This document shows positions 5,985 through 13,361 of a stretch of DNA of 64,000 bases, in pieces (the first letter of the stretch is position 1; each line of letters begins with the position of its first letter). A program made the translations under genes and the position numbers. This DNA comes from Pseudomonadota bacterium (GTDB taxonomy: Bacteria > Pseudomonadota > Gammaproteobacteria > Xanthomonadales > SZUA-38): assembly GCA_039033415.1 (NCBI GenBank), contig JBCCCR010000006.1, positions 124,001 through 188,000 on the forward strand, in the 5' to 3' direction. The notes under the pieces are model-generated. The model was given only the letters and a program-made list of their open reading frames with translations. It searched no databases and was not told where the DNA came from.

Positions 5985-6015
5985 AGTTTCCCGGAGCTTC
6001 ACGCTCCGGGAAACT
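5985..6015. repeat. Perfect 13-bp inverted repeat between convergent genes
   Basis: AGTTTCCCGGAGC (5985-5997) and GCTCCGGGAAACT (6003-6015) form a perfect stem with a 5-base loop. The right arm and the loop cover the last codons and stop of the cryptochrome-like gene on the minus strand; the left arm lies 17 bases after the fasciclin stop. Neither side has a T-run, so it is not a canonical intrinsic terminator, but it could end or stabilise both convergent transcripts. Confidence 0.75.
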
Positions 6016-7201
6016 GCGACAGATCGGCGACAATCTCCGGGATCCGCTGCCGAAACTGGAAAAACCCTTTCTTGCAGTAAGGCCAGCACACTTCATCCCA
6101 GCGCCGGCTGATCTCCTTAAATCGAATCCCTGCGTCGGCCAACCGGTTGGACAGGTCGTCGATTTGCGTACGTCCTGGCCCGACGGGGCAGCGGCTCATG
6201 ACCACGCTGGCCACACCGTGGTCTCTGGCAAACGCCACCACTTCACCCACGTCGGCCAGTGAGCTTGACGCTCCCACGCCAAAGCGATCGTTCAGCCTCG
6301 CGGTGGCGTCCGACAACGCGCCGCCGCTGAAAGAATCCGCGACGTCACCCCGCAGCTGATTTGACTTGAATCGCCGCAGCGACAGCGATCCGATAGCCGC
6401 AACCTCGCAACCGGCGTCCAGCTCTGGACGGAATAGGTCGGTTTCCGTCAGAAGAAACACGGCACGACCGTCAATGACATCCCGCTGATGCTCAACAGCG
6501 TTAAGCGCGGGGCGCTCCACGTCCGGAAGCTCGCCGGCGCTCTGAGCGAGCCCAGGCGTCTCCGAGAAGCGTCCCTCGGTGAAGCGGCGAATATTGTCTT
6601 CGCGCGCGAGATAGGTTTTGCCGACCGTTTGAAACCCCGCCACCCAGCGCCACGACAACGTATTTGACGCTGCGTCGCCATCGACGAGATGGCGCAAAAA
6701 CCAGTCAGCACCGCGCTCCCAGGGCAGCTTGAGCGTAAAGACCCAAATGCTCGCAAACCACATGCGGGCATGGTTGTGCAGGTAACCAAAGCGGGTCAGC
6801 TCATCAGCCCAGACGTCAAAACACTCGATACCCGTCTGGCCGGCGGTCGCCCGCGCCACGGCTTTTTCCAGTGCCGCCGGCAAAGGAGCGCTCAGGGTTG
6901 CCTGATAATCGTCCCAAACCTGACGATGCTGCTCCAGCCAGCCACGCCAGTAGGTGCGCCACATCACTTCGTCGACGAACTTCTCGGCAGCATCCAAGCC
7001 GTGATGATCCATCGCAGCCTGCACAACCTCCCAGTCGCTCAGCAACCGATGGCTCAGCCACGGCGACAAACACGAGACGTTGTCCCGACGATCCGGACCC
7101 AGGTCGAAGTTACGATCGCGCTGGTATCGGCGACCAGCGCGCGGCAAAAAAGCGTCCAGCCGCTCAAGGCCGGCTTGTCGGCTCGGCAAAAATTCGATCA
7201 T
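5999..7201 (-). CDS. Cryptochrome/photolyase-like FAD protein with apparently permuted domains
   Basis: 400 residues. The N-terminal half (about 1-225) is the helical FAD-binding domain of the cryptochrome/photolyase family: LSPWLSHRLLS (45-55), YWRGWLEQH (84-92), NHARMW (143-148) and DGDAASNTLSWRWVAG (174-189). The usual N-terminal antenna domain is missing. Instead, residues about 240-395 read like that alpha/beta domain placed after the FAD domain: a first strand AVFLLTETDLFRPEL, a helix-strand unit FARDHGVASVVMSRCP, then helix LSNRLADAGI and a KKGFFQFRQRIP end resembling the KVFTPFWR end of normal antenna domains. It follows the DUF2256-DUF3253 gene by 42 bases. Whether it repairs DNA or only senses light is not known. 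The family assignment is sure; the permutation is my inference. Confidence 0.85.
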   Translation of the reverse strand: MIEFLPSRQAGLERLDAFLPRAGRRYQRDRNFDLGPDRRDNVSCLSPWLSHRLLSDWEVVQAAMDHHGLDAAEKFVDEVMWRTYWRGWLEQHRQVWDDYQATLSAPLPAALEKAVARATAGQTGIECFDVWADELTRFGYLHNHARMWFASIWVFTLKLPWERGADWFLRHLVDGDAASNTLSWRWVAGFQTVGKTYLAREDNIRRFTEGRFSETPGLAQSAGELPDVERPALNAVEHQRDVIDGRAVFLLTETDLFRPELDAGCEVAAIGSLSLRRFKSNQLRGDVADSFSGGALSDATARLNDRFGVGASSSLADVGEVVAFARDHGVASVVMSRCPVGPGRTQIDDLSNRLADAGIRFKEISRRWDEVCWPYCKKGFFQFRQRIPEIVADLSQFPGA

Positions 7202-7243: not shown

Positions 7244-7624
7244 CTATTTCACCAGGCGCAAGCGCACCGGGCCTTTTGCCCTGGAGGGATCGATGGGGCG
7301 TCCCCGCTGAAGGATTTCCAGTCGCCCCACGTGGTGAAGCCGACGGGCAGCCATCCGCGTCCGTTCCATCAGCGGCCGCCAGTTGTCCTCATCGGGTGCA
7401 ACGCGTCGCGCGGCCTCGCTCGGACAAATAGTGGCACCGGCGGCCCGCTCGCTTAGCAGCGTCACGATCGCCGCCTCCAGCTCCTGGTCCTCGTCGCGGA
7501 GCCCGCTCTGGCTGCAGGCTTTGGAGCAATACCGCACCTGGTCCCAGTCTCGGGCCCACTTTTTGCGCCAGGTGATGACCCGGCCACAGACCCGACAGTT
7601 TTTTGATTCTCTCTCTCGGCTCAT
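7244..7624 (-). CDS. DUF2256 and DUF3253 domain protein
   Basis: 126 residues with two small domains. Residues 8-40 form a DUF2256 zinc-ribbon-like unit with C10, C13, C33 and C37 and the conserved TWRKKW and DQVRYCS segments. Residues 50-126 match DUF3253, a winged-helix-like domain, with ICPSEAARRVAP and NWRPLMERTR. Neither domain has an established function. DUF2256 genes are often found beside cryptochrome/photolyase genes, as here, where the permuted cryptochrome-like gene follows after 42 bases on the same strand. A role as DNA-binding partner is a guess. Confidence 0.85.
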   Translation of the reverse strand: MSRERESKNCRVCGRVITWRKKWARDWDQVRYCSKACSQSGLRDEDQELEAAIVTLLSERAAGATICPSEAARRVAPDEDNWRPLMERTRMAARRLHHVGRLEILQRGRPIDPSRAKGPVRLRLVK

Positions 7625-9419: not shown

Positions 9420-10379
9420 ATGACTATGGCCGAAAATGCTCACAATCTGTTCTCCATCGGGGCTGTTGCCCGCCTGACGGGCTTAACCACGCATAGCCTC
9501 CGCAAATGGGAAGACCGATATCAGGTGGTGACGCCGCTGCGCAGCGACGGCGGTGACCGCCGCTACACGAGCGTGCAGGTGGCGCGGCTGACGCTGCTGA
9601 AGGAGCTGGTCGACGCCGGCCACAGCATCAGCGAACTGGCTGGACTCACAACCGAACGGCTCAAAGCCCGCTCGCTGGCAACCCTGATGCCCCGCGAGCC
9701 GCGAAGCGAAAACGCGTTTAAGGTAGCTGTGCTGGGAGAATTCCTGCCCGCGCTGCTGGAGTATCACAACCCGCTGTCCCCGTCGCTGGACGTCATTGCC
9801 AGCGGCAGCGATGCCGCTGAACTCGACGGGACGCGCGCTGACGCGGTGATCGTTGAAACCTGCAGCCTCGGGGAGCAGCCCGAAGAAACGCTGCACACGA
9901 TTCGGCGGCTGACGGGCGCCCGGTGTCTGGTGGTGCTCTATCGATTCAGCACCCGCACCGACGCCGCCCGCCTGCGCGCCGCTGACGTGATTTGCCTGCG
10001 TATGCCGGTCGATTACCAGGAGCTGCAGCGTCAGGTCGTATCGATGGTGGCCGCGCGAACCGAACCGAACCTCAATGGCGACAGGCCGCCGCCGCAGCGC
10101 TACAGCAAGGAGCTGCTGGCGCGTCTGATGACCATCCAGCCGAGCATCGGCTGTGAGTGTCCGGGGCACGTTGCGGAGATTGTCGCAACGCTGATGGATT
10201 TCGAGGCGTACAGCGCCAACTGCGAGTCAAAAAACGCCGCCGACGCCCAGATTCACCGCAACCTCCACCTCACCGCATCACGAGCACGCGCTGCCTTTGA
10301 GGCGGCGCTCACCGAGGTGGCCGCGCATGAGGGGATCTCGCTCACCGAGACGCTCCCGAGAAGAAGCGCTTCACACTGA
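9420..10379 (+). CDS. MerR-family transcriptional regulator with Rossmann-like C-terminal domain
   Basis: 319 residues. Residues 10-80 form a MerR winged helix (FSIGAVARLTGL, HSLRKWEDRY, GDRRYTSVQVARL) close to the LitR/CarH/MlrA group. Unlike LitR, no helical B12-cap domain follows. Residues about 105-210 look like a Rossmann or receiver-like fold without the cobalamin motif DxHxxG, and the end (about 235-310) carries a Cys/His-containing segment GCECPGHVAEIV and a helical region with an EAYSANCE segment. It therefore probably does not use the adenosylcobalamin light switch. Its neighbours (photolyases, Nei, peroxidase) suggest it controls the response to light or oxidants. Starts are ATG 9420 or ATG 9426; no clear Shine-Dalgarno sequence. 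Confidence 0.85.
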   Translation: MTMAENAHNLFSIGAVARLTGLTTHSLRKWEDRYQVVTPLRSDGGDRRYTSVQVARLTLLKELVDAGHSISELAGLTTERLKARSLATLMPREPRSENAFKVAVLGEFLPALLEYHNPLSPSLDVIASGSDAAELDGTRADAVIVETCSLGEQPEETLHTIRRLTGARCLVVLYRFSTRTDAARLRAADVICLRMPVDYQELQRQVVSMVAARTEPNLNGDRPPPQRYSKELLARLMTIQPSIGCECPGHVAEIVATLMDFEAYSANCESKNAADAQIHRNLHLTASRARAAFEAALTEVAAHEGISLTETLPRRSASH

Positions 10380-10416: not shown

Positions 10417-11862
10417 CTAGCCCTTGCTCTCCTGAAGCGCCGCCAGCGCGGCTTCCCGAGCCTCTCGGTGGTCGACGATGGGATGTGGGTAGTCCGTCCC
10501 GAGCTCAACGCCAGCTTTTCTTAAGATCTCCACCGGCGCTTCCCACGGGCGATTCAGAAATTTCTGCGGCACCTTTGCCAACTCCGGCACCCAGCGTCGA
10601 ACGTAGGCACCATCCGGGTCGAATTTTTCGCCCTGACTCATCGGATTGAAGATGCGGAAGTAAGGCGCAGCGTCGGCGCCGCTGCCGGCAACCCATTGCC
10701 AGCTAGCGGCGTTGCTGGCAAGGTCTGCGTCGACCAACGTATCCCAGAACCAGTCCTCACCGGCACGCCAGTGCTGGCGCAGGTGTTTCACCAGAAACGA
10801 GCCCACCACCATACGAACCCGGTTGTGCATCCAGCCCGTATGCCACAGCTGACGCATGCCCGCGTCCACCAGCGGATAGCCGGTCTGGCCCCGCTGCCAG
10901 TGCTCCAGCTCGACGTTGTCGCTTCGCCAGGGAAAGCGATCGAACTGGTCGCGGAAATTTGCCTCGGGCAGCTCGGGAAACAGCGTCAGAAGATGGTACG
11001 AAAAGTCGCGCCAGCCCAGCTCGCGAAGATAGGCGTCGCTCGCCTGCCCGCTGACCTCGCCAAAGCCGGCGGCCATCTTGAGCGCCTGCCAAACCTGGTT
11101 TGGGCTGATCTCACCGAAGTGCAGGTACGGTGAAAGCCGGGAGGTGTGGTCTTTGCCGGGCCGATCGCGGCCTTCAGCGTAGTCATCCGCTGCGTGGGTC
11201 ACAAAATCGCGGAGCCGCTCGTGGGCACCGGCCTCGCCCGGCTGCCAGCTCTCCCGCAGGCCACCGGCCCAGTCGGGTTTCGTCGGCAGCAGCGCCCAGG
11301 CGGCAAGATCGTCGCTGGCGACGTTATCGCCTTCATACCAGTCCAGCTGATCCGGCATCTCACGCGCGGCCCGATCGCCGATCTGCGCAAGCGAGGCACG
11401 CCAGAACGGCGTGAACACCTTGTACGGGCGACCATCGTTGGTGCGAACCTGCTCGGGCTCCAGCAGCAGCCGGCCGGGAAAACGCTTGACGCTCAGCCGC
11501 TCACCCAGCAGCGCATGCGCGCGCCGCTGCTGCTCAGCGGCCCAGGGCTCGTAGGCCCGGGAAAAAAAGATTGCCTGGGCGCCAGTCGCCTCAACCACCG
11601 ACTCCAGGATCTCCTCGGCGGCACCGTCGGCCAGGACCAGCCGCCCGCCCTGCTCCCGGATTCGCCGAGCGAGGTCGTCCAGGCTGTGATGCAGCCACCA
11701 CCGGCTGGCGCCGCCTTCCTGCCAGGTGCCGGCCGCTGCGCGATCGCGAATGTAAATCGGCAGCACCGGGCCCAGCTCGGCGGCAGCCGCCAGCGCGGCG
11801 TGATCGCTGAGCCTTAGGTCGTTGAAAAACCAACAGATTACGGGTGCGTTTGAGTCGGTCAT
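10417..11862 (-). CDS. phrB: Deoxyribodipyrimidine (CPD) photolyase
   Basis: 481 residues in normal domain order. The N-terminal alpha/beta antenna domain begins VICWFFNDLRLSDHAAL and ends with PYKVFTPFWRASL; the FAD-binding domain includes HTSRLSPYLHFGEIS, LGWRDFSYHLL, HNRVRM and DADLASNAASWQWVAG, as in class I CPD photolyases. The enzyme uses blue light to split cyclobutane pyrimidine dimers in DNA. It follows the PhrB-type gene by 2 bases, so the two form one operon that runs convergent to the MerR-type gene. The C-terminus GTDYPHPIVDHREARE is typical of proteobacterial enzymes. Confidence 0.95.
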   Translation of the reverse strand: MTDSNAPVICWFFNDLRLSDHAALAAAAELGPVLPIYIRDRAAAGTWQEGGASRWWLHHSLDDLARRIREQGGRLVLADGAAEEILESVVEATGAQAIFFSRAYEPWAAEQQRRAHALLGERLSVKRFPGRLLLEPEQVRTNDGRPYKVFTPFWRASLAQIGDRAAREMPDQLDWYEGDNVASDDLAAWALLPTKPDWAGGLRESWQPGEAGAHERLRDFVTHAADDYAEGRDRPGKDHTSRLSPYLHFGEISPNQVWQALKMAAGFGEVSGQASDAYLRELGWRDFSYHLLTLFPELPEANFRDQFDRFPWRSDNVELEHWQRGQTGYPLVDAGMRQLWHTGWMHNRVRMVVGSFLVKHLRQHWRAGEDWFWDTLVDADLASNAASWQWVAGSGADAAPYFRIFNPMSQGEKFDPDGAYVRRWVPELAKVPQKFLNRPWEAPVEILRKAGVELGTDYPHPIVDHREAREAALAALQESKG

Positions 11863-11864
11863 CG

Positions 11865-13361
11865 TCAGGCGGTGTAGTCGTTCAAGAATTGTTCAGCGGC
11901 GGCAAAAATGCCGTCGCGGCGCTCGCTTTTCATTCGGTCCAGCGTTTTGACCATCATCGACAGGCGGTGATTCCCGGCAAAAAAGCTGCGGTGCCGATCC
12001 ACGAAACGCCAGTAGAGGCCGTCCACCACGTCGCACCACGGGCCCCGGGAATAATCGCTCATCTTGAGCAAATAGTTCGAGCCGCAGATATAGGGTTTGG
12101 TCGCAAAAACCCCGCCGTCGGAAAACAGCGCCATGCCGTACACATTCGGGCCCATGACCCAATCCGCCGAGTCGACGTGAGTCACCATAAACCAGTCGTG
12201 GACCTGGCGCGGTTCGATTTCGCAAAGGTTCATCAGGTTGCCGACCACCATCAGCCGGACGATGTGGTGCGACCAACCGAGCTTATTCACGGTGTCGATC
12301 GCGTGGTCGAGCGGCTCAATCCCGGTCTCACCGGTGAACCAGGCGTCGGTGAGCGATCGATGATGGTTCCAAAAGTTACGTTGCCGCTGTTCCTCATCGA
12401 AATGCTGGTAGACGCCACGGATGAACTCGCGCCAGCCGATCACCTGCCGCACAAACCCCTCGAGGCTGTTGAGCGGAATATCGTCGCGCTCCGCCTTTTC
12501 CAGCGCCCGCTCGAGCACCTCCGCGGGGGTGATCAATCCGAGATTCATCATCGGTGAAATCACCCCGTGAAAGACGGTATCGCTGCGCTTGCTCAGGGCA
12601 TCCTGGTAGCGCCCGAAATCAGGCAGCCGGTCCTCGATGAATCGGTTGACCCATACCAGCGCGGAGCGCCGGGTGACCGGCCACCAAAAGTCATCCGCCC
12701 TGCCCGGGTGGTCAGCAAAGTGCTCTTTGACCAGCGCCACCACCTCTTTGGTATGGTCGGTCCAGGCCATCTCAGGCATCGCCGGAATGTCCAGCTTCGC
12801 TGGCAGCTTCTTTCGGTTGTCCTGGTCGAAGCTCCACTGCCCCCCGCGCGGCTTGCCGTCAGCGTCCATCATCAGGCCAAACGATTTGCGCTGTCGCTTG
12901 TAGAAATCCGCCATGAACGGCTTTTTCACCGAGTCCAGATAGCCCGCGAAGTCGTCCCGACTGCTCATGAACATCGGTGAGCGAAGCGTCTCCAGCCCAA
13001 GATCATGAACATTGCAAAAATCGCTGATGCGCTCGGCGAAGAAGTGGTCCTCCAGCTCGAAGCAGACGAGCTTCTGGAGCCCGTTGGCGGCGACAAACGC
13101 CTCGAGCCGATCCTCGTAACTCTCCTCGGATGCCGGGTCGAGCTGCCGGTAGGTGACGTCAAAATCCCGCCGCGCCAGCTCATCCGCGTACTCGCGCATG
13201 GCGGCCAGGAACAGCACCAGCTTCTGCTGATGGTGCTTGACGTAGATGCATAGCCCCACGTCCTCGCACATGAAGACTGGCCCGGCGTCGTCGGGCAGGA
13301 GGTTGGGTGGGAACAGCTGGCTGCCGGTGATCAGCAGGCCGCTGCGCAACGACTCGGACAC
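11865..13361 (-). CDS. FeS-BCP/PhrB-type cryptochrome-photolyase lacking the cluster CxxC
   Basis: 498 residues of the bacterial (6-4) photolyase/cryptochrome group (PhrB of Agrobacterium, CryB of Rhodobacter). Family marks include the long antenna domain, GWREFIRGVYQHF, HHIVRLMVVGNLMNLC, DWVMGPNVYGMALFSDGG and KMSDY. Known members bind a 4Fe-4S cluster with four cysteines, two of them in a CxxC directly after MSDY. Here MSDY is followed by S438-R-G-P-W-C443, and the insert between this point and LYW is shortened by about ten residues. C380 (MNLCEIEP) and C443 could match the first and fourth ligands, but the CxxC is gone. FAD-binding parts look intact. The role (6-4 repair or signalling) is therefore open. 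First gene of the operon with phrB. Confidence 0.9.
   Translation of the reverse strand: MSESLRSGLLITGSQLFPPNLLPDDAGPVFMCEDVGLCIYVKHHQQKLVLFLAAMREYADELARRDFDVTYRQLDPASEESYEDRLEAFVAANGLQKLVCFELEDHFFAERISDFCNVHDLGLETLRSPMFMSSRDDFAGYLDSVKKPFMADFYKRQRKSFGLMMDADGKPRGGQWSFDQDNRKKLPAKLDIPAMPEMAWTDHTKEVVALVKEHFADHPGRADDFWWPVTRRSALVWVNRFIEDRLPDFGRYQDALSKRSDTVFHGVISPMMNLGLITPAEVLERALEKAERDDIPLNSLEGFVRQVIGWREFIRGVYQHFDEEQRQRNFWNHHRSLTDAWFTGETGIEPLDHAIDTVNKLGWSHHIVRLMVVGNLMNLCEIEPRQVHDWFMVTHVDSADWVMGPNVYGMALFSDGGVFATKPYICGSNYLLKMSDYSRGPWCDVVDGLYWRFVDRHRSFFAGNHRLSMMVKTLDRMKSERRDGIFAAAEQFLNDYTA

Follow-up and report, generated by a model that had tools for sequence, protein, structure and literature searches.

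The gene at positions 5999..7201 (minus strand) of the 64,000-nucleotide stretch of DNA analyzed here (the window) very probably encodes a photolyase of the NewPHL/Phr7 type, a short protein of 400 residues that starts with the catalytic FAD domain, ends with a shrunken antenna-like domain, and most likely functions in the repair of cyclobutane pyrimidine dimers (CPDs). The assignment draws on the open reading frame, the Pfam match to FAD_binding_7, the predicted structure, the relatives of the protein, and its position in a phylogenetic tree. A preliminary description of this DNA had taken the arrangement to be undescribed; however, FAD-first photolyases are already in print, as NewPHL in 2020 and as Phr4, Phr5, Phr6, and Phr7 (PMC9426592), and the window protein is a member of the known NewPHL/Phr7 group, the domain order of which has been described since 2020. 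PMC9426592 presents the picocyanobacterial Phr4/5/6 proteins as reverse-order photolyases and Phr7 of Prochlorococcus as an N-terminal FAD domain followed by a C-terminal domain, termed the Z-domain in the literature; it credits Emmerich et al with showing proteins of the Phr7 kind. PMC13274461 reports an inverted domain topology for NewPHLs and SPLs, and supplies the accessions of two characterized NewPHL members, A8LJA9 and M7YZC8, as well as the accessions Q2N8F4 and B6IPR5. A literature search combining photolyase with circular permutation found nothing relevant.

The swapped domain order itself is confirmed. The coordinates of the open reading frame are exact, with the stop codon at 5999-6001. 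From stop to stop the frame comprises 403 codons, with the upstream stop just before the ATG, which leaves no room for an in-frame antenna domain ahead of the FAD domain. This in-frame stop, together with conserved full-length relatives, also rules out a truncated or frameshifted ordinary photolyase. At least 579 relatives are present in named genomes, and we kept the best 80 loci; all of these best 80 match the protein over its full length, aligning from residues 1-10 to 383-400 with 41-50% identity. The AlphaFold2 model of the whole 400-residue protein, based on 65 aligned sequences, has a pLDDT of 93.7 and a pTM of 0.92. This alignment of 65 rows consists of the window protein and 64 of the 80 loci, 16 loci having been removed by hand.

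The N-terminal FAD (catalytic) domain covers residues 1-230 (6512..7201, minus strand) and is supported by VIA-align structural matches, invariant columns, and active-site residues. The preliminary description had placed the FAD domain first, which is borne out by the sole Pfam match in the protein, FAD_binding_7 at residues 75-195 (E 1.2e-19), and by VIA-align Z scores of 13-16 to photolyases. For example, residues 1-230 match photolyase FAD domains with Z 15.8 (1iqr) and Z 15.4 (7ykn), and it is FAD domain matches that fill the Foldseek and VIA-align lists of the whole model. Similarly, 44 solved sequences are matched, photolyases leading, and no best stretch extends past residue 229. FAD motifs listed in the earlier account are clearly recognizable at residues 45-55 (LSPWLSHRLLS), 143-148 (NHARMW), and 174-189 (DGDAASNTLSWRWVAG). 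NCBIfam photolyase models score 58-60 bits against cut-offs of 317-885; membership in the CRY-DASH or class I groups was rejected on account of these sub-threshold scores and the missing N-terminal antenna domain.

Conservation is concentrated in the first domain, with 41 invariant columns in residues 1-230 vs four in residues 231-400 among the 65 rows. Eleven residues are unchanged in all 65 rows, namely E78, W81, R82, N143, R146, M147, D174, D176, N180, W184, and W186, and they align, in the same order, with E274, W277, R278, N341, R344, M345, D372, D374, N378, W382, and W384 of the E. coli photolyase (1DNP). These E. coli residues have roles in FAD and CPD binding. In addition, W161 aligns with E. 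coli W359, and both W161 and W184 are kept in 65/65 rows. The column of the third tryptophan of the triad is occupied by alanine in the window protein and carries tryptophan in none of the 65 NewPHL rows vs 20 of 24 ordinary rows. Five of the 65 have a tryptophan within eight columns of the missing one, which, judged from the alignment, may represent a shifted donor. The position facing FAD-N5 is asparagine (N180) in every row. The window protein contains cysteines only at positions 44, 127, 265, 338, 372, and 376; it lacks the Fe-S cysteine set, and column 127 is the only one with cysteine in more than 30% of the 65 rows.

Several of these features are published for NewPHLs. The window protein shares with them the FAD domain in front and the second domain at the end, the tryptophan dyad, the asparagine at FAD-N5, and a wide distribution in Alphaproteobacteria, and we found no differences in a comparison made through published descriptions. 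The NewPHL of D. shibae (Dinoroseobacter) is reported to have just a tryptophan dyad (PMC8948257), and the asparagine at FAD-N5 to be conserved in NewPHL (PMC12083526). Class I CPD photolyases, represented by E. coli 1DNP and by the ordinary photolyase encoded at 10417..11862 (minus strand) of the window, which we used as the comparison gene and in which PF00875 and PF03441 both exceed the Pfam cut-off, share the same two predicted folds and the catalytic residues. However, they differ in the opposite, antenna-first domain order, the tryptophan triad, and a longer FAD domain.

Given the conserved active site and two tryptophans without a third, photoreduction via the dyad and CPD splitting are the natural reading. 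In the proposed mechanism, the N-terminal domain would bind FAD, which would be photoreduced through W184 and W161. A dimer held by E78, W81, N143, M147, and W186 would then receive an electron under blue or near-UV light and be split. By analogy with characterized NewPHLs, the enzyme would prefer single-stranded DNA, and most likely repairs pyrimidine dimers in that substrate. The C-terminal domain would close the flavin pocket, probably without an antenna chromophore. The class is relevant to how photolyases came to be assembled and to the light-driven repair of single-stranded DNA. The preliminary description had instead suggested a possible light sensor. On such a reading, the protein would be a permuted cryptochrome-like one, no longer active in repair, with signaling via the C-terminal domain. 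Although the flavin chemistry would permit such a role and a MerR-type regulator is encoded nearby, we consider it highly improbable: the CPD-photolyase active-site residues are invariant in 65/65 rows, the FAD-N5 position holds asparagine rather than the aspartate or cysteine with which it is contrasted in PMC12083526, the neighbors include DNA-repair genes, and the characterized relatives repair CPDs according to PMC9426592.

The C-terminal antenna-like alpha/beta domain comprises residues 237-400 (6002..6493, minus strand) and is recognized from AlphaFold2, VIA-align, and hhalign with shuffled controls. Folded alone, the ~164 C-terminal residues reach a pLDDT of 88.9 and show the order strand, strand, helix, strand, helix, strand, helix, strand, followed by helices. 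The best VIA-align match is residues 2-150 of the Thermus photolyase (Z 10.9, rmsd 3.0, 142 residues), and ranks 1-16 are all photolyases or cryptochromes, with Z falling from 10.9 to 9.7. In agreement, Foldseek ranks 1-26 are photolyases and cryptochromes, at 12-18% identity and with a best E of 1.3e-3 (none below 0.001). Thus, the earlier suggestion that the last ~160 residues resemble the antenna domain holds: they are predicted to adopt this fold, and they also match it by profile.

In hhalign, the C-terminal profile scores 31.4 against a curated alignment of canonical antenna domains (E 2.7e-4, probability 42) and 34.5 against Phr5, a separate antenna protein (E 6.5e-5, probability 64), while Phr5 itself matches the canonical antenna profile with E 5e-11. 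The control built from other families at the loci consisted of just ten clusters, one of them NewPHL and one photolyases, and because of this small number we added shuffled profiles. None of 200 block-shuffled controls per target reached the observed score (maxima 21.0 for the canonical antenna and 22.5 for Phr5), and the reversed targets scored 14.8 and 12.1, respectively. With 31 full-length photolyase-family proteins aligned without curation, the score was 21.5, inside the shuffled range but still the top score among the nine non-NewPHL clusters compared (next, 16.5). The profile of the whole family also yields a weak second match in hmmsearch, between the C-terminal part and residues 36-127 of the Anacystis photolyase, at 1.7 bits and non-significant alone.

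In single-sequence searches with the ~163 C-terminal residues, Pfam gives nothing below E 0.19, NCBIfam nothing at E 1, and the PDB sequences only matches at chance level (E 1.1 and worse). The Z-domain is poorly recognized by family databases, Pfam detecting only the FAD part, and the present results add a link to the antenna domain through structure and profile. Could the domain instead be an unrelated Rossmann-like or stress-protein-like one, making the protein a fusion with a foreign domain? Universal stress proteins do enter the VIA-align list at rank 17 with Z 9.7 over 107 residues, level with ranks 11-16, and again at Z 9.5, so that only the best photolyase rows are more than one Z unit clear. 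PF00875 (DNA_photolyase) weakly matches three of 65 C-terminal parts (best E 0.011), none of which reaches the cut-off, and the unrelated family BLH_phosphatase matches six of 65 (best E 7.6e-5); the sequence signal is weak, as is also seen in the low score of the uncurated photolyase alignment. Against this, most photolyase rows extend over 142-157 residues and take in the helices that follow the sheet, compared with 105-132 residues for the stress proteins (the photolyase-list rows 7ykn, 8a1h, and 3zxs, with 112-117, are exceptions). Foldseek places nothing but photolyases and cryptochromes in its leading rows, the hhalign matches are in register and above all shuffles for both targets, and Phr5, clearly an antenna protein, bridges the two domains. 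We therefore regard a foreign origin as improbable and think it likely that the domain derives from the antenna domain.

Within this domain, the conserved structural residues are G341, D369, G379, and F381, together with the nearly invariant R366, W373, and P374. With so few invariant columns, the domain appears to be held by a few structural residues rather than to form an obvious pocket. The abstract of Emmerich et al reportedly assigns a sealing role to the second domain, and we infer that such a role fits the conservation pattern better than light harvesting does. The C-terminal domain of the window protein probably represents a degenerate antenna domain whose function is to close the flavin pocket.

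The best 80 of the at least 579 relatives belong, by title, mostly to Alphaproteobacteria, such as Ruegeria, Roseobacter, Sphingomonas, and Brevundimonas, and nine are from Microbacteriaceae. Among 274 sampled genomes from the class to which the window belongs, seven have a match with E <1e-45 (its own genome included), and three further related forms occur, two split (L009 and L011) and one fused (L010). Among 41 near relatives, four genomes, again including its own, have a match with E <1e-100. Six annotated plasmid-borne relatives carry the name 'FAD-binding domain-containing protein'. Six phage records match mainly the FAD part (query residues 8-238) with 23-30% identity and lend no support to a phage origin.

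Matches at E 1e-22 or better occur in 71 of 292 genomes from the phylum of an uncultured cyanobacterium record. Twelve small genomes (1.6-1.9 Mb) among those 71 contain open frames of 385-405 residues that we label Phr7-like on the basis of phylum, small genome, length, and absence of Fe-S cysteines; the next 17 loci of this phylum are Phr4-like. Four spaced cysteines are present in 17/17 Phr4-like and 0/12 Phr7-like proteins and are absent from the window protein; PMC9426592 describes Phr7, too, as lacking the Fe-S cysteines. The window protein resembles Prochlorococcus Phr7 in architecture, absence of Fe-S cysteines, clade, and tail motif (FAKKGFFKFKENIP vs YCKKGFFQFRQRIP); the identity between the two is ~45% in the FAD domain, with greater divergence in the C-terminal domain.

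For the FAD-domain tree, we combined every third of the 80 loci (27 in total) with two near relatives and four loci from the class, leaving out the ordinary rows L049, L061, and L087. The window protein falls into one group (100/99) with the Phr7-like proteins and its relatives from Alphaproteobacteria, whereas Phr4 and the split forms (100/90) and the ordinary photolyases (100/98) make up separate groups. For a second tree, we dropped the long-branched L027 and L010 as well as L006, whose letter composition is odd; this tree recovers the same three groups at 100/100, 99/97, and 100/100, with a bootstrap that had not settled. L113, a relative from the same family with one in-frame TGA, is outside both trees. 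A photolyase with Fe-S cysteines and reversed domain order, of the Phr4/Phr6 or SPL type, would also have the FAD domain before the antenna, as in Phr4 plus Phr5 (two genes) or in SPL and the fused Phr6 of Synechococcus/Cyanobium, whose order is the same according to PMC9426592. However, Phr4-type proteins are set apart by their cysteines, their separate clade in both trees, and a better preserved antenna protein. We rejected the Fe-S Phr4/Phr6 group on the basis of the cysteines and both trees, and consider it extremely improbable that the window protein is of an Fe-S type rather than a NewPHL.

With three groups and no root, the trees do not reveal whether the FAD-first order had a single origin. 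Separate downstream antenna genes in relatives make a fusion possible instead of a strict circular permutation in three dimensions. An antenna gene lies downstream on the same strand in 11 of the 17 Phr4-like loci, and the Phr4/Phr5-like two-gene layout persists in the window's class as the split pairs L009 and L011. It is conceivable, if somewhat doubtful, that the reversed order arose by fusion of a FAD-domain gene to a downstream antenna gene, without any full photolyase having been circularly permuted. If this were so, ordinary photolyases would represent the same two pieces fused the other way around. The adjacent FAD and antenna genes of these pairs (L009:1339-2615, plus strand; L011:917-2229, minus strand) have the FAD gene first and lack the four Fe-S cysteines seen in Phr4; in the tree, they fall within the Phr4 clade. 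The other six Phr4-like loci (L148, L154, L155, L156, L157, and L158) encode Fe-S cysteines and have no antenna gene within the ~1.5 kb flank; these genes may be true FAD-only photolyases.

The window carries three photolyase-family genes within 7.4 kb, of the NewPHL, ordinary, and DPRP types, and four FAD_binding_7 genes are present genome-wide. The DPRP-type gene (11865..13361, minus strand) matches Pfam DPRP (E 1.4e-64) and FAD_binding_7; inspected by eye, it seems to lack the C-terminal Fe-S cysteine cluster of its relative in L008. Further nearby genes encode an Fpg/Nei-type glycosylase, a glutathione peroxidase, a MerR regulator, a fasciclin protein, and, 42 bases upstream of the NewPHL-type gene, a protein with the Pfam domains DUF2256 and DUF3253 (7244..7624, minus strand), which is possibly co-transcribed with the photolyase. 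In 72 of the 80 related loci, the flank on each side is 1.5 kb or longer, so that neighbor counts are lower bounds: among the best 80 of at least 579 related genes, at least 23 lie near a further photolyase-family gene, and at least 12 have DUF2256/DUF3253 relatives nearby, 11 of them within 135 bases. We found no paper in a literature search for DUF2256 with photolyase. The repeated association of the two genes may offer a lead. The nearest matching gene neighborhoods are those of Woeseiaceae, where L058 and L109 each have the MerR, peroxidase, and glycosylase genes as neighbors, too. The MerR-type regulator gene (window 9420-10379) lies beside the photolyase genes and is likewise found next to the photolyase relatives at these two loci; PMC9758184 describes control of photolyase genes by LitR-type MerR regulators in Pseudomonas.
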